This document shows, one piece after another, positions 5,093 through 19,848 of a DNA stretch of 30,450 bases (the stretch's first letter is position 1; each line of letters opens with the position of its first letter). Origin of the DNA: a virus. A program made the translations under genes and the position numbers. The notes beneath the pieces were generated by a model that saw only the letters and a program-made list of their open reading frames with translations, was not told where the DNA came from and did no database searches. The stretch covers positions 1-30,450 of the IMG/VR virus record IMGVR_UViG_3300033149_003925; one strand, written 5' to 3'.

Positions 5093-5219
5093 GTATGTGG
5101 AAGATTTGGCTAAAGCCATGTCTGATCCGAGAGCTAAAAAAGGAGATTTTAGTAAGGCCTTACGGCAGATAATCGAAGAACACAAATGGAAGATCAAAAA
5201 AACGCTCACATTCAATTAG
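5055..5219 (+). CDS. Ribbon-helix-helix-like small protein
   Basis: A 54-aa protein whose layout (strand KKLVILS, helix KSQIEYVEDLAKAM, helix FSKALRQIIEEHK) fits a ribbon-helix-helix DNA-binding domain. The ATG at 5055 is used; an in-frame ATG at 5031 lies deeper in the preceding gene. It overlaps the AbrB-like gene by 38 nt and the chaperonin gene by 34 nt, all in different frames, so the three are translated from one message. It may act with the AbrB-like protein as an operon regulator. Confidence 0.6.
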   Translation: MKKLVILSKSQIEYVEDLAKAMSDPRAKKGDFSKALRQIIEEHKWKIKKTLTFN

Positions 5220-6592
5220 CAGTTAATTTTGCTGATTTAGTTAGGAGCACATTAGGACCAAGAGGGATGAATAAGATAGTTATTGGAAAAGCTGAAACTC
5301 TCCACACAAATGATGGAGCTTCTATTATTAAGAATATAGATGCAAATGATCCAATTATTGGGTTGTTTAAAGAGTTGGCTATTTCTCAAGAGGAAAGAAT
5401 AGGAGATGGAACTACTACTGCTGTTATTTTAGCTGGACAATTTTTAAATAATGCTCTTCAGTTGATTAATAAAGGAATTCATCCCACAACAATTATTAAT
5501 GGATATAATATTGCGAAAGTAGAAACTATGAAGTTTTTAGAACAAGCTGCTGAAAAAGGAGATAAACAGAAAATTATTAAAACAGCTTTTGGAAGTAAAG
5601 TATCAAAAGAAACAGTCCAACATTTGACAAAACTTTTATTAGATATAAACCCAGAAGTAAAAATCCATAAAAAAATTGATGATCCAATAAAAAGTGAAAT
5701 TTATAAAGGGTTTGTTTTTGAAGGATTTACTTTGAATGATTTAACTCCAAGCCAGATTGAAGGGAATATTTGCTTACTTGATTACAGAACAAATGTTGAG
5801 GCGGCAAATTATTCTGTAACAGATGTAAATGAATTGAAAAAAATTAATGAATATGACCGCATTTATAAAAAAGAGATAGTAGATAATCTTGTTGAGAAGA
5901 AAGTTGATTGTTTACTTTATACAGACACTAATCCTGAATTTGAAGCTATGTTGACTGAAGCTGGAATTACAGGGATTGTTGTTTATAAAAGAGGTGATTT
6001 TATTAGTGGAATTGCACAGGCATTAGATATTCTTCCAACAAGTGACCCTAAAAATATGCATGTTAAAAAAGGAAAATTAAAATATGTCAAACCAAATCAG
6101 ATTTTTATTGATGGAGATATGGAAACTTTAATTCTTTGTGGTTCTACAAAACAAACTTTAGATGAAATTGAACGGGCAATTCACGATGTTTTATCATTAC
6201 TTAAACATGATACTGATACTGTTGTTGGTGCTGGAGCAGTTGAAATAGGAATTGCTAATCATTTGAATGCTATTGCTAAAAATCTTGGTGGTAAAGAACA
6301 ACTTGCAATTGAAAAGTATGCAGAAGCTATTGAAAGTATTCCTTTAATTTTGGCAGAAAATGCAGGGTTGGATTCTATGGCTGTCTTAACAATATTAAAA
6401 ACAAAACATCTAAATGGAGAAAATGATTTGGGGGTTGATATTTTTCAAGGAGTTTCAAATGCAAGAGAAAGAGGCATAGTTGATCCAGTCTTTGTAAAAA
6501 TCTGTGCTATTGATTCTGCGACGAATGTTGCAAACTTAATTCTAAAAACAGATAAAATTCTAATGGGAGAAAAAAGTGAAGATAATAATTAG
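5186..6592 (+). CDS. Group II chaperonin (thermosome-like), compact viral form
   Basis: A 468-aa ATP-driven protein-folding subunit of the thermosome/CCT family, expected to form a double ring in the cytoplasm. Visible family motifs: STLGPRGMNK (21-30), TNDGASIIK (41-49), GDGTTTAV (73-80), GIHPTTIINGY (97-107), the ATPase aspartate in HDVLSLL (D334), GAGAVE (348-353, family form GGGAVE), REQLAIE-like KEQLAIEKYAEAI, IPLILAENAGLD (385-395) and GVDIFQG. Thermosome subunits are usually about 540 aa; this one lacks the N-terminal extension and the Gly/Met C-terminal tail, and has a shortened apical part (about 165-300). Both catalytic aspartates remain, so it looks active. It is the first large gene of the operon; likely clients are capsid or tail proteins, by inference. 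Confidence 0.93.
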   Translation: MEDQKNAHIQLAVNFADLVRSTLGPRGMNKIVIGKAETLHTNDGASIIKNIDANDPIIGLFKELAISQEERIGDGTTTAVILAGQFLNNALQLINKGIHPTTIINGYNIAKVETMKFLEQAAEKGDKQKIIKTAFGSKVSKETVQHLTKLLLDINPEVKIHKKIDDPIKSEIYKGFVFEGFTLNDLTPSQIEGNICLLDYRTNVEAANYSVTDVNELKKINEYDRIYKKEIVDNLVEKKVDCLLYTDTNPEFEAMLTEAGITGIVVYKRGDFISGIAQALDILPTSDPKNMHVKKGKLKYVKPNQIFIDGDMETLILCGSTKQTLDEIERAIHDVLSLLKHDTDTVVGAGAVEIGIANHLNAIAKNLGGKEQLAIEKYAEAIESIPLILAENAGLDSMAVLTILKTKHLNGENDLGVDIFQGVSNARERGIVDPVFVKICAIDSATNVANLILKTDKILMGEKSEDNN

Positions 6593-7238
6593 TTATTTAC
6601 AAGAGGACGAAAAATTAAAGGAATGTTTAGCAAGTCTCAAAAAATATTCGCCAAATGTTGAAGTAATTAAACTAAAATCTGATCCTAAGGTAACTAAAAG
6701 TTGTGAAGATGCAATTAGAAAATATATTGAAAAAAACGGGATGGATGATGATTTAATGGAATGGCATCCAGATATGCGTGCAACTAAGGGTTGGTATGAG
6801 AAATTAATGAAGTATTATGATAAATATGATATAATTGGATGTAAATTACTTTATCCAGATGGATTAGTTCAGCATTATGGTGGATTTTTTTTAGGAGATG
6901 GGAGAGGATTTCACCCTCACCAGTATGCTTTAAATTTTGGGGCAAATGATCCAATGGAAACTGCTTATGTTACAGGGCCAAGTATGGTTGTTAAAAAACA
7001 TGTTTACAAAAAATTAAATGGTTGGGATCACACTCTTTGGGCTTATATTGATGCAGACTTTTGTATCAGAGCAAGAAAAGAAGGGTTCAGTGTTGGGGTA
7101 GTTCCAGTTGAATTAATTCATTATGAAGGAGAAGATCAACTAAAAAAAAGAACTTTAGAAGAAAATAATAAAATTCTTGGAGAAGGTCATAAAATATTCG
7201 TAAGTAAACATATGGATTATTTATCAAAATTCAAATGA
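6576..7238 (+). CDS. Family 2-like glycosyltransferase
   Basis: A 220-aa GT-A glycosyltransferase. The N-terminal strand KIIISYLQED begins the nucleotide-sugar fold; the middle has CKLLYPDGLVQHYGGFF and the C-terminal part GWDHTLWAYIDADFCIRARK, a typical GT2 acceptor/metal region ending in a histidine (ELIHYEG). The usual N-terminal DxD is replaced by EWHPDMRATKGW, so metal binding may differ. The start is GTG 6576 with GGGAGA just upstream, overlapping the chaperonin stop by 17 nt. It opens the sugar cluster and probably moves a hexose onto a viral or host glycan. The exact sugar is unknown. Confidence 0.8.
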   Translation: MKIIISYLQEDEKLKECLASLKKYSPNVEVIKLKSDPKVTKSCEDAIRKYIEKNGMDDDLMEWHPDMRATKGWYEKLMKYYDKYDIIGCKLLYPDGLVQHYGGFFLGDGRGFHPHQYALNFGANDPMETAYVTGPSMVVKKHVYKKLNGWDHTLWAYIDADFCIRARKEGFSVGVVPVELIHYEGEDQLKKRTLEENNKILGEGHKIFVSKHMDYLSKFK

Positions 7239-8071
7239 TGCCCAAACGATTTAACTATGCAACAGCATTTTTGACACTTAGATGTAATTTAGATTGTTCT
7301 TATTGTATAAATGATGACTCTGGAGTTGTTAGAAATAGGAAAGAACTTACTGGTGATGAATGGATCTCTGCTATTAATAGGATAGATTTTGGAAAATTAC
7401 CTCTTACTCTGACTGGCGGTGAGCCAACACTTCATAAAGATTTTTATCAAATAGTTAAAGAAACAAAAGTTCCTTTAGATATGATTACAAACTTACAATT
7501 TGATGTTGACGAATTTATTGAAAAAACAGATCCAAAAAGATTTCGTTTTTATCAAGATTCAGAAAATTCAGCATATAGAAGTATAAGAGCAAGTTTTCAT
7601 CCAGAAAGAATGAGTGTTGAAGATACAGTAAATAATGCAGTAAAATTACAAGACGCAGGATTTAAAGTAGGTATTTTTTCATTAAATGTTCCTCAAAATA
7701 CTGAAAAGAATATGCAGATGGCTGAACGAGCAAGACAAGAGAAAATGTATTTCTTTATTCAGGATTTTTTAGGTGTTAAAGATGGAAGATTATATGGAAA
7801 CTTCAAATATCCAGAAGGACTTGATGGAAAATTAAAGCATGCTGAATGTAGAACTAAAGAACTTCTTATTGACCCAAAAGGAGATGTTTTTCCATGTCAT
7901 AGACATCTTTATCATAACACAAATAAAATAGGAAATATTAATGATGTTCACTTTAGAATAAAAGATGAATTTAGATCATGTGAAGAATATGGAGGATGTA
8001 ACCCTTGTGATGTTAAATTAAAAACAAATCGTTTCTTACAAATGGGAAGCTGTTCAGTGGAGATAAAATGA
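7235..8071 (+). CDS. Radical SAM enzyme
   Basis: A 278-aa radical SAM protein. CNLDCSYC (C17, C21, C24) is the cluster-binding CxxxCxxC; LTLTGGEPTL is the GGE SAM-binding motif. The C-terminal part has further cysteines (AECRTKELL, FPCHRH, CEEYGGCNPC) in a SPASM-like arrangement that could hold a second iron-sulfur cluster. Such enzymes modify sugars, peptides or cofactors by radical chemistry. It overlaps both neighbours as ATGA, so it is made with the glycosyltransferases and likely acts on a glycan precursor or a peptide. Substrate cannot be told from sequence. Confidence 0.85.
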   Translation: MMPKRFNYATAFLTLRCNLDCSYCINDDSGVVRNRKELTGDEWISAINRIDFGKLPLTLTGGEPTLHKDFYQIVKETKVPLDMITNLQFDVDEFIEKTDPKRFRFYQDSENSAYRSIRASFHPERMSVEDTVNNAVKLQDAGFKVGIFSLNVPQNTEKNMQMAERARQEKMYFFIQDFLGVKDGRLYGNFKYPEGLDGKLKHAECRTKELLIDPKGDVFPCHRHLYHNTNKIGNINDVHFRIKDEFRSCEEYGGCNPCDVKLKTNRFLQMGSCSVEIK

Positions 8072-9209: not shown

Positions 9210-9769
9210 GTTTGAAAACTATTTTGTTTAAATTTGATGATATTTGTAAAGAATTAGGTATTAAATATTTTCTTTTACAAGGAACTTGTTTAGGACTTTT
9301 TAGAGATCATAATTTTATTAAAGATGATACTGATATTGATGTTTTTGTTGATTGTAGTAAAAATAAATTGATTAAATTATTTAAACAATTAGAAAAAAAA
9401 GGATTTGTTCCAGATAAGATTTTTTCCAATAGGTTTGAAAATGCGCCTGGAGAAGAAATAAACAGGCATGTAAAGTATGGAACTATGTGGATGGATGTTT
9501 ATTTCAAAATGTTGGATAACAGAAAGAAGTTTATGATTAAACCAAATAAAATTAGATTTAAAGGGAGAATATTCAACTGCCCATCACCAGTTGAAGAATA
9601 TTTAGCTTTAGAATTTGGAGATACTTGGGAAACTCCATGTGGTCAAAAGAGTAGAGGGAAAGGATCACTACTTTTTGAACCATCAAAAGATTTATCTTGG
9701 GACGAATTATTAGAAGCTAAAGAGTGGTTAAAAAATACTATTCCACATGAGAGAGGAGAATTAAAATGA
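9206..9769 (+). CDS. LicD-like phosphotransferase
   Basis: A 187-aa protein of the LicD/nucleotidyltransferase fold. YFLLQGTCLGLFRDHNFIKDD (about 21-41) followed by TDIDVFVD is the LicD signature, including the GT(x)LG loop and the DxD metal pair (D43, D45). LicD proteins transfer phosphocholine or a similar phospho-alcohol from a CDP donor onto a surface glycan. The ATGA overlap with the cytidylyltransferase and the shared operon support that activity here. It is shorter than many bacterial LicD proteins (about 260 aa) but retains the catalytic block and the FNCPSPVEEYL helix seen in the family. Confidence 0.8.
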   Translation: MSLKTILFKFDDICKELGIKYFLLQGTCLGLFRDHNFIKDDTDIDVFVDCSKNKLIKLFKQLEKKGFVPDKIFSNRFENAPGEEINRHVKYGTMWMDVYFKMLDNRKKFMIKPNKIRFKGRIFNCPSPVEEYLALEFGDTWETPCGQKSRGKGSLLFEPSKDLSWDELLEAKEWLKNTIPHERGELK

Positions 9770-10842
9770 CAAGATTAATGGACGGAACAAAAATATTATG
9801 GCACATGGAGAGGGTTAGAGAACATTATGATGAAGGAAAAAGGATTTCACCACTTTTAATTAATATCGGAGCTACAAAAAAATGTAATGCTAACTGTGTT
9901 TATTGTTATGGAAATTTTCAAGGAAAAGACCAAAAATCTTCAATAGAAAGAGAACCTCTTTTAGATTTATTTGCTTCTGCACCTAAATTGGGGGTTAAAG
10001 CTTTAGAAATAATTGGAGATGGAGAACCAACTTTAAATCCACATATTTATGATGCTATGGATATTGGTAAAAAGAATGGATTAGATATAGCTTTTTCTAC
10101 TAATGGGATTTTATTAGATAATGATGAGAAGAGAGAAAATGTTTTAAGAAATAATAAATGGATGAGATTTAATCTTTCTGCTGGGACAAAAGAAGGATAT
10201 AAGAAAATCCATAGAGTAGATCAATTTGAGAAAGTTACAAGCAATATAGAAGCTATGGTAAGACTAAAAAAAGAAAAAGGTTATGAATGTGATATTGGTC
10301 TGCAGGCAGTTTATGTTCCTGGAATGATGGATAAAGATATGGTTGATGAATCAAAATTGGCAGTTAAATTAGGTGTAGATTATTTAGTTATTAAACAATG
10401 TAGTCTTCCAGAAGATGGAACTGTTTCAGACGTTTCTTTTGATGTAAGGGATTATGATAAACCAGAAGTTAGAAAAGTTTTAAAAACTTGTGAAGCTATG
10501 TCGACAGACGAAACAGACATAGTTATTAAATGGAATTTTATGGATATTGGTAAAAAAAGACCTTATGATCATTGTGTAGATGCACCTTTAATCTTTCAAG
10601 TTAGTGGAAATGGAAAATGCTATCCTTGTGGCTATCTTTTTGGAAATGAAGAATATGAGTATGGTGATTTAAATGAACAAAGTTTAGAGAAGATTTTAAA
10701 AAGCGAAAAGTATTGGGATGTGATAGATAAAATGAAAACTTTTGATGTTCACAATGATTGTGAGGGTTGTTGTAGACATGATAAAATTAACGAATTCATT
10801 TGGAATTACTTAAATAAACCAAAGGGGGTTAATTTTATATGA
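9766..10842 (+). CDS. Radical SAM/SPASM enzyme
   Basis: A 358-aa radical SAM protein. CNANCVYC (C40, C44, C47) binds the SAM cluster, EIIGDGEPTL replaces the GGE motif, and the C-terminal region carries CVDAP, KCYPCGY and DCEGCCRHD cysteines as a SPASM domain with auxiliary clusters. SPASM enzymes mature peptides or alter sugars and cofactors. It is the second radical SAM enzyme in this operon and is not similar enough at a glance to the first to be a recent copy. Overlaps of 4 nt with both neighbours mark it as part of the same message. Confidence 0.87.
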   Translation: MTRLMDGTKILWHMERVREHYDEGKRISPLLINIGATKKCNANCVYCYGNFQGKDQKSSIEREPLLDLFASAPKLGVKALEIIGDGEPTLNPHIYDAMDIGKKNGLDIAFSTNGILLDNDEKRENVLRNNKWMRFNLSAGTKEGYKKIHRVDQFEKVTSNIEAMVRLKKEKGYECDIGLQAVYVPGMMDKDMVDESKLAVKLGVDYLVIKQCSLPEDGTVSDVSFDVRDYDKPEVRKVLKTCEAMSTDETDIVIKWNFMDIGKKRPYDHCVDAPLIFQVSGNGKCYPCGYLFGNEEYEYGDLNEQSLEKILKSEKYWDVIDKMKTFDVHNDCEGCCRHDKINEFIWNYLNKPKGVNFI

Positions 10843-13756: not shown

Positions 13757-14454
13757 ATCCTGAACAATTAAAAGAAATGAATGAAATCAAGTGGTGGCAT
13801 CAAATTGAATTGCCAGTAGAGAATGGAACAGTTACAACTCCTGGAAGAGATCTTTCTGCTATCAAATTATCTGTGATAGGTATGCCTGAAGATTTAACTG
13901 GGAAACATGTAATTGATGTTGGAGCATGGGATGGTTATTTCTCATTTGAAGCAGAGAAAAGAGGCGCAGAAGTTTTAGCTATAGATACAGTTATGTGGAA
14001 AGAGGGACCAACATTTGATTCAGAAAAAAATAAAGAAGTTCATCACACAGGTAAGAGAGGATTTAATTTTGCAAAAAAGATGCTTAATTCAAAAGTTAGA
14101 TCAGAAAGAGTTGAAGTTATGGATTTAGACGATGCTTCTCAATATGATTTAGTTTTATGTTTAGGAATTCTTTATCATATGAAAGATCCTTTTGGGATGT
14201 GTAAAAAAATGTTTGAAATTACAAAAGAAGGTGGGCAATTAATTCTTGAAACTCATATTGATTGTGAAGTAGAAGGAATAATGAATAAACCAATGATGAG
14301 ATTTTATCCAGATAAAGAATGTAATAATGATCCTGGAACTTGGTGGGGACCAAATCCAGGATGTGTTATTGCTATGCTGAAAGTAGTAGGATTTAAAGAA
14401 GTAAAATTACATCATTTAAGTAATCATAGGGGGATATTTCACGCATTCAAATGA
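13753..14454 (+). CDS. SAM-dependent methyltransferase (CmoB/DUF1698-like)
   Basis: A 233-aa class I methyltransferase. WWHQIELPVENGTVTTPGRD near the N-terminus and HVIDVGAWDGYFSFEAEKRGA (about 51-71, SAM loop) resemble the CmoB/DUF1698 group; LCLGILYHMKDPFGM follows at the acceptor side. Relatives act on tRNA or on small molecules and sugars; the surrounding glycosyltransferases favour a sugar substrate here. ATGA overlaps with the membrane peptide before and the HNH gene after. Confidence 0.8.
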   Translation: MNPEQLKEMNEIKWWHQIELPVENGTVTTPGRDLSAIKLSVIGMPEDLTGKHVIDVGAWDGYFSFEAEKRGAEVLAIDTVMWKEGPTFDSEKNKEVHHTGKRGFNFAKKMLNSKVRSERVEVMDLDDASQYDLVLCLGILYHMKDPFGMCKKMFEITKEGGQLILETHIDCEVEGIMNKPMMRFYPDKECNNDPGTWWGPNPGCVIAMLKVVGFKEVKLHHLSNHRGIFHAFK

Positions 14455-14825
14455 GAGATAAAAAAGGAAGATTTATGAAAGGGTATAAGAGAAAACTTTC
14501 AAAGAAGCATAAAGAAAATATAGCAAGAGGATTAGCAAGGGCCCGACCAAAACGTCTCGGAAAAAATAGTTCTCAATGGAAAGGTGGAATTTCACAGGAT
14601 TATTATAGAAGGATAGCATTTGAAAATTTACCAAATCTTTGTGAGATTTGTGGTTCTTTAAATCAACTGAGAGTTCATCATAAAGATCAAAATAGACTTA
14701 ATAATGATTTAAATAATTTAATGATTGTTTGTAAATCATGTCATAATAAAATTCATGAAAAATGGAAAAATCTTCATTCAATTAAAAGACTTAAGAAATT
14801 AAGTCGGGAGGTGAAAAATGGCTGA
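14451..14825 (+). CDS. HNH homing endonuclease with NUMOD-like N-terminus
   Basis: A 124-aa HNH nuclease. The basic N-terminus (KGRFMKGYKRKLSKKHKENIARGL) looks like a NUMOD3-type DNA-binding helix, a module common in homing endonucleases. CEICGS, LRVHHKDQNRLNND, then CKSCHNKIH form the HNH zinc site and catalytic histidines. It sits neatly between two glycan genes with overlaps at both ends, so it has become part of the operon. The next gene begins inside its last codons and is frame-disrupted 60 nt later, which might relate to its mobility. Confidence 0.85.
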   Translation: MRDKKGRFMKGYKRKLSKKHKENIARGLARARPKRLGKNSSQWKGGISQDYYRRIAFENLPNLCEICGSLNQLRVHHKDQNRLNNDLNNLMIVCKSCHNKIHEKWKNLHSIKRLKKLSREVKNG

Positions 14826-16039
14826 AATACGTGTTTTGTCCTATGGAGATAATCCTTTGGCAAGCACTGGCTATGGGATGTGTTTGGGAAAATTTACTTT
14901 CAAGGTGGGCTAAATTAAAACCTGATTGGAAATTCTATCATGTTGGCTGGCAGAATTTAGATAGAGAACACCAAACAAAAGAAGGGTATATCAGTCTTCC
15001 AACAGGTAGGGTTGAAATTGGAAAAGACACTATTATTCCAAACATAGAAAAACTAAATCCAGATTTTATAATTACTCTTGCAGATGTTGGAAAACAATTA
15101 GCATTTCTTGAACCAATTTTTGAAGCAAAGAAAAAAGGATGGAAAGGAAAATGGATTGCTTATGTGCCATTAGATACTGCAGATTGGGCTCTTTATTGGG
15201 ATGAAATGTTTACTGCACCAGATATTATTGTTGCAATGAGTGAGTTTGGAAAAGAGAGAATGCAACATTATGGGGTTAAAAATCCAATTTCAATTCTTCA
15301 TGGAGTTGATACAAAAGTTTATTGTCCTTTAAAAGAGAAAAGTTTGCTTAGAAATAATTTTAAGATTAATGATAAGTTTGTCGTAGGGTTTGTTGGTAGA
15401 AATCAAATAAGAAAAATGCATCCTTATTGGATTAGGGGTTTTTCAAGATTTGCTAAAGGAAAAGAAGATGTTTGTCTTTTATTACATACTGACGCAGATC
15501 CTCCTGCTGGTGAAGGAAGAGGATGGGCAATACCATGTATTGTTTGGAAAAACGAAAAAGAATTCGGAGAAGATTTATCAAAGAAAATTATTTTAACAAG
15601 AACAAAATTAGATATTAGAGCAAGACAAAAGATAGGAAAGAATGATATGAATGAAATTTATAATTTAATGGATGTTTTCCTTTTTCCAACTGGTGGAGAA
15701 GGTTTTGGTTTACCTGCAATTGAATGTCAAAGTGCCGGCATTCCAATTTTGATGTCTAACAATACAACAGGCCCAGAATTAGCAGGAAATGGCGAGTTGA
15801 TAAATATGCTCAAAGACAATCATGGAAGAGAAATGCGTTTAGTTGGAACAAATGGGGTTACAAATTCAATTCCAGATGATAAACATGTGACAGAATTACT
15901 TGAGAAATACTATCAAGATTGGAAAAACGGAAAGAAATTATTAAAGGAGATGTCAAAAAAAAGTAGAGACTTTGCATTAACACTTGATTGGGACATCATC
16001 GCTAAACAATGGATTACTATGTTTGAGAAAGAATTATGA
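14818..16039 (+). CDS. Family 4-like (GT-B) glycosyltransferase with frame change near its N-terminus
   Basis: A GT-B transferase of about 405 aa if read with one frame change. ATG 14818 has GGGAGGTG upstream and encodes MAEIRVLSYGDNPLASTGYG, the expected first strand and glycine loop, but that frame ends at 14911. The remainder, from WENLLSRWAKLKPDWKF to the stop at 16039, is in the +1 frame and contains TADWALYWDEM, ILHGVDTKVYCP, VGFVGRNQIRKMHP and PTGGEGFGLPAIECQSAGIP with the EX7E motif. Dropping one base near 14881 joins the two as ...GYGMVWENL. Options are an assembly error, a true frameshift, programmed +1 shifting, or a shortened protein from GTG 14831. Confidence 0.8.
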
Positions 16040-16042
16040 TAA

Positions 16043-18304
16043 ATGAGAACCATTCACCAAATATTAAAGAAAACCAAATTTACTGAAACTCGTATGGAAG
16101 AGTTCTGGAGTAGATGTTATTTTGATTTTCTTTATTTTGCAGAGCATGTTTTGGGGTTTGAAATTGCTGATTATCATCGTGAGTGGTATGAACTTGCTGA
16201 GAAATATCCAAGACTTTGTATAGAAGCTTTTAGAGGTTCAGGAAAAACTTATTTCTTTTCAGGATATTATTTATGGAAATCTATTTTTCAGGCTCCAAGA
16301 GAAACATTAATTATTTCTTACAGAGAAAGTCAAGCAAAACAAGTATTAAAAATTGTTAAGAATATGGTGGTTGGAAATGAGATACTAAAGCAATTTGTCC
16401 CAGAAAATAGAGATGCCACTTGGCGTGCAACAGAATTAGAATTAGTTAATGGAGCAATCTTTTATTGTAAACCTTATAATGAGTCTGTTCGTATGTGGCA
16501 CCCAGATGATGTTCTTTGTGATGAAATTGGAGAATATGAAGATAAGTCTATTTATTGGACAGCGGTTTTAGGAACTATTCAGCTTAAAAGGGGAAGAGTT
16601 ATTGGTATTGGAACTCCAAAATCTGCAGCAGATTTATTATCAGAATTAAAAACCAACGATGAATATTATTGTGGGAGCTATCCAGCAGAGACAAACGGAA
16701 ATGCTCTTTGGCCACAGAAATATACAACTCTTGATTATGATACAGATACGAAAAAAAGTTTAATTAAGATTAGGAAAGAAATGGGAGAATTACCTTATGC
16801 TCAAGAATATATGTTGATCCCTATTAGTTCAGCAAATTCTCTTTTCCCAATGGAAATTTTAACACCCAATATAACAGACCAAGAAGATTTCTTACCTTAT
16901 GGAAGAAAAGATGAAAGATATTATATTGGTTATGATGTTGCAAGAACTCCAAAGGGAGATTATGTTGTGATGGTTGTTTTGGGAGTTAATGCCGATAGAA
17001 AAAGATTAGTTAAAGGGCTTAGGTTCAGAGGAACGTTCGAAGAACAGATTGAAAAATTAAAAAGACTTTATGAAGATTTTAAACCAATTAAAATAATTGT
17101 TGATGCAACAGGCTTAGGAGATAAACAAGCAAGAGATATTGAAAGAGAATTTTCAGGTGTAGAAATGTTAAAAGTTACTTATGAAAATAAGATTAATATG
17201 TATACTGATTTAAGGAGAGAGTTTGAAAACTTTAATTTGACTCTTCCAAATAATAAAGATGGAGATTCTTATGCCTTTACTCAGCAATTAGTTAAAGAAT
17301 TAAATGAGATAGCTTTGAAGATGGACTTACGTCCTGGACAAACCACAAGACCTAAATTTCATTCAGGAAGACATGATGATTGTTTATTTGAAGGAACTTT
17401 AATAACAACAAATAAAGGACAGAAACCCATTGAAGAAATAAAAGTTGGAGATTTAGTTTTAACAAGAAAAGGATTTAGGAAAGTTACAAAAGCTTGGCTT
17501 AAATCAGAAAATGCAGAATTATATCAATTAAAATTTAATGATGGAAGAACATTAATAGGAACTTCAGACCACAAGATATTTACCCAAGAAAAAGGATTTA
17601 TTCCAATAGATACTATGCGTAACATTTATAAACCTTTAGATGCTATAAGTTATGTATGTCAATCAAATTCAATGGAAAAATTTACAGCAGAAATAAAAGA
17701 ACAGGATATTGGTGTAGGGCAGGAGGATATGGACTTTTGCATAGAGATGTTTGGGAATTTTATAACAAAAAAATACCAAAAGGATTTGAAATTCACCATA
17801 AAGACGGAAACAAATCCAACAACAAAATTGAAAACCTTGAATGTCTCAAACGAGGAGGATATACTCTTAAACACCATAAACACTGGACAAAAGAAAGAAA
17901 AGAAAAACAAAGAGAATGGATGGAAAAAATTAGGCCACTCACAAAAAAATGGCACAAATCTAAAGAAGGAAAAAAATGGCATAAAGCACATTGGAAAAAA
18001 AGTCTTGGAAATAAAAGGAAATCAATTAAAAAAAGATGTGAAGTATGTTCTAAAGAATTTACAGATAATTCGTTTCAACAGTCAGGAAAATATTGTTCAA
18101 ACAAATGCCAACAAAAAGCATTTAGAATTAGAAACTCTAAAAAAATTAGATTATACAGGAAAGGTATATGACTTAACAGTAGAAGAAGAACATGAATTTT
18201 TTGCTAATGGAATTTTAGTTCATAATTGTGCTGATGCTTTATCCTTTGCAAATAGGGCTGCGCAGAATATTTATGGTGCAGTTAGTGTTAGAGGAGTAGA
18301 ATAG
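16043..18304 (+). CDS. terL: Large terminase subunit containing an intein
   Basis: A 753-aa precursor; 471 aa after removal of a 282-aa intein. It is the DNA-packaging motor and nuclease. ATPase: Walker A FRGSGKT (63-69), Walker B DDVLCDEIGE (155-164). RNase H-like nuclease: YIGYDVARTPKGD (D298), IIVDATGLGD (D354) and HDD (444-446). The intein is inserted directly after this last HDD, and the protein resumes with CADALSFANRAAQ. Splicing is therefore required to rebuild the active site. The start at 16043 is 3 nt after the glycosyltransferase stop with a weak ribosome site. A T-rich stretch follows the stop. Confidence 0.95.
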   Translation: MRTIHQILKKTKFTETRMEEFWSRCYFDFLYFAEHVLGFEIADYHREWYELAEKYPRLCIEAFRGSGKTYFFSGYYLWKSIFQAPRETLIISYRESQAKQVLKIVKNMVVGNEILKQFVPENRDATWRATELELVNGAIFYCKPYNESVRMWHPDDVLCDEIGEYEDKSIYWTAVLGTIQLKRGRVIGIGTPKSAADLLSELKTNDEYYCGSYPAETNGNALWPQKYTTLDYDTDTKKSLIKIRKEMGELPYAQEYMLIPISSANSLFPMEILTPNITDQEDFLPYGRKDERYYIGYDVARTPKGDYVVMVVLGVNADRKRLVKGLRFRGTFEEQIEKLKRLYEDFKPIKIIVDATGLGDKQARDIEREFSGVEMLKVTYENKINMYTDLRREFENFNLTLPNNKDGDSYAFTQQLVKELNEIALKMDLRPGQTTRPKFHSGRHDDCLFEGTLITTNKGQKPIEEIKVGDLVLTRKGFRKVTKAWLKSENAELYQLKFNDGRTLIGTSDHKIFTQEKGFIPIDTMRNIYKPLDAISYVCQSNSMEKFTAEIKEQDIGVGQEDMDFCIEMFGNFITKKYQKDLKFTIKTETNPTTKLKTLNVSNEEDILLNTINTGQKKEKKNKENGWKKLGHSQKNGTNLKKEKNGIKHIGKKVLEIKGNQLKKDVKYVLKNLQIIRFNSQENIVQTNANKKHLELETLKKLDYTGKVYDLTVEEEHEFFANGILVHNCADALSFANRAAQNIYGAVSVRGVE
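17622..17633 (+). promoter_or_regulatory. TATA-like box inside the intein, for the nested HNH gene
   Basis: ACATTTATAAAC is the same 12-nt core found in the two strong promoters at 3842-3860 and 4793-4811. Its centre lies about 28 nt before ATG 17656, the spacing of leaderless genes elsewhere in the window. The BRE part (GCGTA) is weaker. The same bases encode RNIYKP in the intein. Confidence 0.5.
17656..18171 (+). CDS. HNH homing endonuclease nested out of frame in the intein
   Basis: A complete 171-aa HNH protein read in a different frame from the terminase/intein. The N-terminus (GYWCRAGGYGLLHRDVWEFY) and IPKGFEIHHKDGNKSNNKIENLECL form the HNH_3-type active site with catalytic HH, D and N residues. 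A basic helical middle (KEKQREWMEKI...KKWHK) is followed by a C-terminal zinc finger (CEVCSKEF ... YCSNKCQQKAF). Its frame is closed by a TAA about 27 nt upstream, so it needs its own start; no clear ribosome site is visible, but a TATA-like box is 28 nt away. It probably spreads the intein allele by cutting intein-free terminase genes. Confidence 0.88.
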   Translation: MSIKFNGKIYSRNKRTGYWCRAGGYGLLHRDVWEFYNKKIPKGFEIHHKDGNKSNNKIENLECLKRGGYTLKHHKHWTKERKEKQREWMEKIRPLTKKWHKSKEGKKWHKAHWKKSLGNKRKSIKKRCEVCSKEFTDNSFQQSGKYCSNKCQQKAFRIRNSKKIRLYRKGI

Positions 18305-18350
18305 TCATTGTTGCGTAAAATATCAAGTTTATGTATGCTGTGCCTAAAAG

Positions 18351-18371
18351 TTTATTTTTTGTCATTTTTTT
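18351..18371 (+). terminator. T-rich terminator after terminase
   Basis: Two T runs (TTTATTTTTT and CATTTTTTT) lie 47-67 nt after the terminase stop. Archaeal transcription often ends at such runs, and here it would stop the rightward transcript before the convergent methyltransferase gene. Confidence 0.5.
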
Positions 18372-18957
18372 ACTCCTGTTCCACATTTTCTGGTATTTTC
18401 ATAAAACAAAACCATTTTGTATCTGATTTTCCACTTCCAGAAGTTCTATTAAAAAACAAAGGTTCTTTTGGGAAAAGGGATAATACTTCTTTAAATTTTA
18501 TATGATAATCACTAAACTTAAATAAAAGAACACCATAATTATCAAGAACAGACCATAATTCTTTAAATCCTTTCTTTAAGTCTGATTGCCATGTTTCTGG
18601 ATGTAGTCCCCCAAACTTCTTTAACATTTCTCCAGTTAATTTTCTTGCTTTAAAATGTGGAGTGTCCCAAACAATTAATTTAAATCTTTGAGATTTAATT
18701 GAATCAGGTAAGTTAGAAAAGTCAGCTTGTATATCTGGATTAATTTCTACATTTCTTTGATTTGGAATAAAACCTTTTTCTTCTTTTCTTATATCAATAT
18801 AAAGAGTATTTGGATGTTTTTTATTATTCCACATCTGTCTTGCCCCACAACAAGCATCAAGAATAAATTTATCACCATCATGCGCTAACTTCCAATCTTT
18901 ACAAGATTCTTTATCTAACTTTTCTAAATGTTCCATAAAATCTTGTTGTTTTTCCAT
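18370..18957 (-). CDS. Phage-type SAM-dependent methyltransferase (probable DNA modification)
   Basis: A 195-aa class I methyltransferase. FILDACCGARQMW (about 32-44) is the SAM loop and LYIDIR the next acidic strand; LIVWDTPHF is in the place of the DPPY-like catalytic motif, suggesting amino-group methylation of DNA bases, although the motif is altered. KSDTKWFCFMK closes the fold. ATG 18957 is used because AGGTGG lies just upstream and the previous gene stops at 18959-18961. It follows the YopX/RHH gene in a leftward block. A role in protecting viral DNA is plausible by family, not proven. Confidence 0.75.
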   Translation of the reverse strand: MEKQQDFMEHLEKLDKESCKDWKLAHDGDKFILDACCGARQMWNNKKHPNTLYIDIRKEEKGFIPNQRNVEINPDIQADFSNLPDSIKSQRFKLIVWDTPHFKARKLTGEMLKKFGGLHPETWQSDLKKGFKELWSVLDNYGVLLFKFSDYHIKFKEVLSLFPKEPLFFNRTSGSGKSDTKWFCFMKIPENVEQE

Positions 18958-18958
18958 T

Positions 18959-19105
18959 TTATCCACCTTTTTTTATTACCTCTTTTATTAATTCCTCTAA
19001 CATTTCAGACATTTCTACTCTTTGTCTTATACAATAAATCTTAAAATCTTCCCAGATAAAAGGGTTAATTTTTATACTCGTTGTTTTTCTTTCTTCTTTA
19101 GTCAT
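18959..19105 (-). CDS. Ribbon-helix-helix protein from an internal start
   Basis: The last 48 codons of the YopX frame form a complete RHH domain: strand KTTSIKINP, helix FIWEDFKIYCIRQR, helix EMSEMLEELIKEVIKK. Immediately before ATG 19105 is GGAGGAG at ideal spacing, so this protein is very likely also made on its own. It may repress transcription of the leftward block or the nearby divergent promoter. It is listed separately because both products, fused and free, are possible. Confidence 0.55.
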   Translation of the reverse strand: MTKEERKTTSIKINPFIWEDFKIYCIRQRVEMSEMLEELIKEVIKKGG

Positions 19106-19555
19106 TTTTCTCCTCCAACAATTCAGGATCTCAAATTTATTTCCCACAACAATTTCTCCTTTTCCGAACTTGTCATAAAGTTTCTTAAATTTATCATAAT
19201 CCTCTTTTGTTTTTGTAAGTATCTTTTCTTCGTTTATTCTTTTCCAACCAAATCTATATCCATAATTATAATCTTGTTCTACTTCAACGCAAATGGTAAT
19301 TAAATACCAAACATTTTTCCCGAAACCTTTACATACTATTGTCTTTAAAATATCCCCTTCATAAATCTCTTTTCCATTTTTATCTTTTAGTCCAGTAAAT
19401 TGTATGAGCTCAACACCATCTAAATTATGCCAATCATTATGTTCATCTAAAATCCCCTTGCCACATTCATCACAATTATCTACAAAAGTTAATCTATCTA
19501 CTTTTAACATTTCTTTTTCTTTTTTATCCCAAGCCCTAAATTTTATTTCTCTCAT
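18959..19555 (-). CDS. YopX-domain protein fused to a ribbon-helix-helix domain
   Basis: A 198-aa reading frame. Residues 1-150 are a YopX protein, a family frequent in phages and of unknown function: MREIKFRAWDKKEKEML, then LIQFTGLKDKNGKEIYEGDIL, and IVVGNKFEI at the end. Between them CDECGK is a possible half zinc site. The frame then runs without a stop into a 48-aa ribbon-helix-helix protein that has its own ribosome site and ATG at 19105. ATG 19555 is chosen because GAGAGG precedes it; an ATG at 19588 lacks one. The usual YopX end is close to the join, so this is probably a stop-codon loss or a true fusion. Confidence 0.75.
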   Translation of the reverse strand: MREIKFRAWDKKEKEMLKVDRLTFVDNCDECGKGILDEHNDWHNLDGVELIQFTGLKDKNGKEIYEGDILKTIVCKGFGKNVWYLITICVEVEQDYNYGYRFGWKRINEEKILTKTKEDYDKFKKLYDKFGKGEIVVGNKFEILNCWRRKMTKEERKTTSIKINPFIWEDFKIYCIRQRVEMSEMLEELIKEVIKKGG

Positions 19556-19614
19556 TTTCCATAACCTCTCTGTATCAATTCCAACCATCTATTTTTATTT
19601 TTGCAACAATTTTC

Positions 19615-19848
19615 TCAGGACTTACAAATTGGAGATCTAAGAATGTTGATTGTGCAATACCCGTTAGAGGCGTTGAGTGATCCTTCTCGAAATCTCAACA
19701 AGATTGTTTTATAAAATTCCTCAATCAATTTACTCTTATTTATTTTCTTTTCTTTAAAAAGTTTGTTTATATCTTCTTTAATGGACTTGTTTATTTTTAC
19801 AGTCTCCATAATATCGTTTGGATATTTATATTTCCCTATTTTTATCAT
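19615..19848 (-). CDS. RHH-like small DNA-binding protein
   Basis: A 77-aa protein. Residues about 14-50 (METVKINKSIKEDINKLFKEKKINKSKLIEEFYKTIL) have the strand-helix-helix layout of RHH regulators. The last 20 residues contain two cysteines and no known motif. The gene begins about 26 nt from the centre of a TATA box shared with the portal gene on the other side, so it is probably leaderless and transcribed divergently from the virion genes. A regulator of that shared promoter is a reasonable guess. Confidence 0.6.
   Translation of the reverse strand: MIKIGKYKYPNDIMETVKINKSIKEDINKLFKEKKINKSKLIEEFYKTILLRFREGSLNASNGYCTINILRSPICKS

Follow-up and report, generated by a model that had tools for sequence, protein, structure and literature searches.

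Can the homing endonuclease of an intein be a complete gene in another reading frame of the same DNA? The question is raised by a terminase large subunit (TerL) gene in the IMG/VR virus record IMGVR_UViG_3300033149_003925, the whole of which (30,450 bases) was analyzed and is referred to here as the window. The TerL ORF at 16043-18304 encodes 753 aa and is stop-free from end to end. The first-pass annotation had described within it a terminase intein that retained its splice residues and an open frame, and an HNH nuclease ORF lying out of that frame, closed by a TAA shortly before its ATG. All of these features were found where they had been placed (Table 1). From the sequence comparisons presented below, we consider it very probable that the intein is mobile and that its homing endonuclease is encoded by a complete overprinted gene instead of forming an intein domain.

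Table 1. Features of the terminase gene, the intein and the nested HNH gene (window coordinates)
Feature	Position	Strand	Basis
N-extein of TerL (ATPase and most of the RNase H-like nuclease)	16043..17380	+	Terminase_6N, Terminase_6C
N-terminal splicing part of the intein (Hint; Cys1; Thr61 and His64 of block B)	17381..17665	+	AlphaFold2 pLDDT; residues invariant in 40 inteins
TAA in the HNH frame, closing it 27 nt upstream of the ATG	17629..17631	+	sequence
HNH homing endonuclease gene nested in the intein, in its -1 frame (171 aa)	17656..18171	+	HNH_3 1e-14; AlphaFold2 pLDDT 89
Intein-frame linker, residues 101-242, shadow of the HNH gene	17681..18106	+	AlphaFold2 pLDDT <50; amino acids drift, stops absent
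HNH residues: HH (47-48); N60; Tyr69 (TAT); Cys4 zinc finger	17794-17799; 17833; 17860-17862; 18037-18108	+	residue counts
C-terminal splicing part of the intein (blocks F and G; last residues ILVHN)	18113..18226	+	AlphaFold2 pLDDT about 95; TIGR01443
C-extein of TerL, first residue Cys+1 (CADALSFAN..., nuclease motif DD/CADA, the slash marking the insertion point)	18227..18304	+	DDCADAL unbroken in intein-less relatives L006-L008

The intein extends from a Cys (17381) to an Asn (18224-18226), which is followed by Cys+1, and was matched by the Pfam Intein_splicing (5e-14), TIGR01443 intein_Cterm (3e-9) and Hint_2 profiles. Residues C1, T61, H64, H281 and N282 were invariant among 40 intein sequences. 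By its sequence, the window intein belongs with the class 1 inteins, having Cys1, the block B TxxH, the terminal His-Asn and a Cys at the position where Cys, Ser or Thr+1 is expected. The AlphaFold2 model has the Hint fold of that class, which is predicted confidently from residues 1-95 and 245-282 (in the N-terminal part, pLDDT 96-98 at residues 1-80 and about 90 at residues 81-90) and matches the gp41-1 intein (6qaz, TMt 0.86; Foldseek). In the same model, the 142-residue linker is disordered exactly where the HNH gene sits. Self-splicing of the window intein is predicted from these features. Intein-less relatives provide empty alleles at the same nuclease motif.

Other architectures were considered for the window and set aside. 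A canonical intein with an in-frame endonuclease does not apply to an HNH in the -1 frame that is closed upstream by the TAA at 17629, and a split intein does not apply to a continuous intein frame. No Rfam match to a group I intron was found in 15800-18700.

The model of the HNH protein was confident (mean pLDDT 89), and its best fold match in the PDB was I-HmuI, a weak one (E=0.06, prob 0.90); a sequence search of the PDB with the HNH profile returned no matches. Catalytic and zinc residues were near-invariant among relatives. The clear HNH active site and zinc finger claimed at first hold for HH, N60 and the zinc cysteines, but not for the third HNH residue, which is Tyr69 in the window and His in the other 34 of the 35 sequences aligned. 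Because this residue is otherwise a near-invariant His, the window copy of the HNH may be impaired or losing activity.

When the arrangement was surveyed in IMG/VR and phage records, 124 non-redundant nested cases were obtained (119 at -1 and 5 at +1), the count being taken after removal of near-duplicates and the nested set being defined by an open intein ORF. The proposal of a nuclease gene out of frame inside an otherwise mini-intein-like intein is thus matched by the same arrangement at >120 loci. Relatives keep both frames open as well, the closest one, L005, at matching places. The same intein/HNH module was found in locus L017 in a very different terminase, and the other intein matches of the first scan that spanned the HNH region also contained a nested HNH. 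A scan with the HNH profile returned 80 loci, which were pooled with the earlier loci and GenBank phage records. In this HNH-based sample, 71 HNH genes were at -1 and 5 at +1 within an open intein, 4 were accompanied by a closed intein frame and none was in the intein frame. Where hits were ranked by the window intein, the survey is biased towards relatives. Nested HNH genes were also present in Tetrasphaera phage TJE1, Acinetobacter phage Highwayman and a Rhodobacteraceae phage (GenBank; OP947163), whose GenBank records annotate only a terminase large subunit and leave the HNH unannotated. A scan of genome contigs gave four loci, three of them with contiguous inteins; with the profile used, none was seen to carry a nested HNH. 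The N-exteins of 69 cases matched terminase families only, save for intein/endonuclease domains in single members. Pacc40 gp60 was rejected as an example of nesting in an intein, because the HNH that it carries out of frame is located apart from its intein, the middle of which contains no nested HNH.

Two routes to the HNH product were compared, namely independent initiation at an internal start codon and programmed -1 frameshifting by ribosomes reading the intein frame, which would yield an IntN-HNH fusion and not a free protein. Frameshifting would agree with the position of nearly all cases at -1 (119/124), but +1 cases exist, slippery heptamers were found in 6 of the 124 cases compared to 5% in the background, i.e., without excess, and the HNH frame is closed by stops a short distance upstream (median 17 codons, minimum 3). 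Moreover, SD-like motifs were enriched, preceding 30% of the nearest ATGs compared to 7% of background ATGs (P=2e-12). A plausible start codon was present in all 124 nested genes, and it was ATG in 115 of them. Because of these start codons, the enriched SD-like motifs and slippery sites at background level, the sequences favor independent internal initiation over frameshifting, which we regard as improbable. In the window, the HNH start has no SD-like motif; among the 18 further genes examined there, 10 also lack one. We infer that the HNH gene is expressed.

That the intein frame is open across the HNH gene could mean little if the HNH were a non-functional relic and the frame open by chance. 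For the window alone, the probability of an open intein frame was 0.24 when its own synonymous codons were shuffled and 0.001 with GC3-matched codons, and the first-pass claim that a stop-free second frame is unlikely by chance is therefore left undecided by the window. It is the family that supports it. Over the HNH gene, 103 thinned cases contained 0 stops in the intein frame and 1754 (mean 17) in the third frame. With within-gene synonymous shuffling, 14.6 open frames were expected compared to 103 of 103 observed (joint log10 P about -142), in a set of cases selected as open, beside which there are about four loci whose intein frame is closed. GC3-matched synonymous resampling gave an expectation of 0.8 open intein frames in 71. 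Non-nested relatives had 2-11 stops in the +1-offset frame. In the +1 cases, the open alternative frame switches accordingly and the other offset holds 7-10 stops, indicating that openness follows the intein frame and is not a property of HNH codons. Openness is thus beyond chance, decisively in the family and not decisively in the window alone.

Substitution patterns in both frames were computed as isolated changes per opportunity in 14 disjoint close pairs. Changes silent in both frames occurred at 0.047, those silent in HNH and altering the intein at 0.053, those altering HNH and silent in the intein at 0.0063, and those altering both at 0.0061. HNH-altering changes were approximately eightfold rarer than HNH-silent ones, while HNH-silent changes that alter the intein were as frequent as fully silent ones. 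Stop-creating changes in the intein frame numbered 0, whereas the HNH-silent rate would predict about 9. These rates point to purifying selection on the HNH protein. In the linker of the intein frame, they indicate that residues drift freely and the frame must stay open, since intein-altering changes are as common as silent ones and stop-creating changes are missing. The suggestion that selection kept both frames open is borne out in an unequal form, the HNH sequence being conserved and the linker only stop-free. The shuffling result for the window and its Tyr69 would fit a relic, but the strong purifying selection on HNH residues in the 14 pairs, the avoidance of stops in the intein frame and the near-invariant catalytic and zinc residues of the relatives make a relic very improbable. 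An in-frame HNH domain shifted by assembly or sequencing indels, which nothing but the strangeness of an isolated case would suggest, can practically be dismissed, because the same layout recurs in >120 independent contigs and in the complete or annotated GenBank genomes (TJE1, Highwayman, OP947163) and the HNH ORFs possess their own start and stop; the compensating indels named at first as counter-evidence are excluded on the same grounds.

The module appears to be mobile. Its presence among terminases is patchy, with empty alleles in L006-L008. The intein DNA of the window and L017 is 83% identical (nt), while the exteins are only 23% identical (aa), which indicates by sequence that the whole intein and HNH module moved horizontally between terminases. 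In the mechanism that we propose, an HNH gene came to overprint a mobile intein in a second frame, at the position where endonucleases are usually inserted. Ribosomes on terL would traverse the whole region and produce a precursor with a meaningless, disordered linker, around which the two Hint halves would fold and excise the intein, making the nuclease site of the terminase whole again. The HNH enzyme would be translated on its own from the internal ATG and is predicted to cleave the empty site, i.e., the DDxxDA site of terL alleles that lack the intein, and repair after the cut would copy the intein and the HNH together, resulting in homing.

Several known systems resemble parts of this arrangement. 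In-frame HNH_3 inteins are known from the cyanophage CL131 dCTP deaminase, where splicing was shown (PMC6293099); the CL131 intein shares Hint and HNH_3 with the window but reads the HNH in the intein frame, whereas in the window the HNH has a gene of its own, out of the intein frame. Out-of-frame HNH insertions without a splicing domain were published in 2025 (PMC11855218). The insertion described there (ShiLan domain/Pacc40 gp60 insertion) has in common with the window a complete out-of-frame HNH gene, an open host frame and no obvious RBS. It differs in that it occurs in methylases, has no splicing domain and leaves its shadow in the host protein. A ShiLan-type insertion was rejected for the window, where the HNH is enclosed by a complete Hint domain. 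A passage of PMC11855218 cites the Gosselin et al. 2025 preprint (10.1101/2025.01.02.630785), on non-canonical actinobacteriophage intein architecture, for overlapping reading frames; the preprint possibly covers the same arrangement, its title being restricted to actinobacteriophages.

Split inteins with an endonuclease between the halves, as in phage MIJ3 PolB, share with the window a separate gene at the same place and a related Hint fold (gp41-1). They differ from the window intein, which is contiguous and predicted to splice in cis, with an HNH that overlaps it rather than separating its halves. Dassa et al. (2009, cited in PMC6892783) reportedly described split inteins whose halves are separated by an endonuclease gene. 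Split inteins with HNH are also known (PMC6892783), and such systems are resembled by a few loci of the present survey. In L084, L089/L090 and L094, IntN is closed by a TGA before the HNH and IntC is in a separate ORF after it; in L094, IntC has its own ATG with an SD-like motif ahead of it. These loci are likely to be split inteins with the HNH in between. Closure of the intein frame in relatives had been put forward as evidence against overprinting; it was found in these few distant loci, but there the separate IntC is what would be expected of a split intein. In the HNH tree, the +1 cases fell within a clade that also holds -1 cases, with mixed support; because the two share a clade, the frame relation may have changed at least once or HNHs may have been inserted more than once. 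Two inteins were observed in one terminase in L179 (506-3376), one with a different HNH at +1 and one at -1, and L151 also has two inteins with nested HNH genes.

These findings suggest that a homing endonuclease and the intein that carries it can be separate proteins. An intein that tolerates about 140 unconstrained residues could lodge an endonuclease gene in another frame, provided that stops in the intein frame are avoided. We tentatively propose, as a possibility somewhat short of even, that inteins with an overprinted endonuclease are a third intein architecture in phage terminases, widespread and mostly unannotated, next to the in-frame and the split type, and that split inteins arise naturally from them, one stop in the shadow and a start for IntC giving a split form as in L094. 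The overprinted intein would then offer a testable origin for split inteins. The nested pair is also a clean test case, provided by nature, for overlapping genes under asymmetric selection, and annotation appears to have missed many endonuclease genes in phage terminases.

Other genes of the window were also noted. A second, ordinary HNH gene (14451-14825; PF01844 2e-6) is located just upstream of a glycosyltransferase gene and terL. Between terL and the portal gene there is a minus-strand island (18308-19690) with a DNA methyltransferase (phrog_954) and YopX. At about 19626-19680, a reading that ends in NVDCAIPVRGVE and a stop resembles the C-terminus of TerL (ending in NIYGAVSVRGVE and a stop), as if the end of terL had been split or duplicated by the island. 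Two radical SAM genes (7235-8071 and 9766-10842, the second with SPASM above cut-off) were found near glycosyltransferases in this tailed virus. The gene at 5186-6592 encodes a group II (thermosome-like) chaperonin (TIGR02339 3e-80 compared to 1e-28 for GroEL), which hints at an archaeal or archaea-like host.
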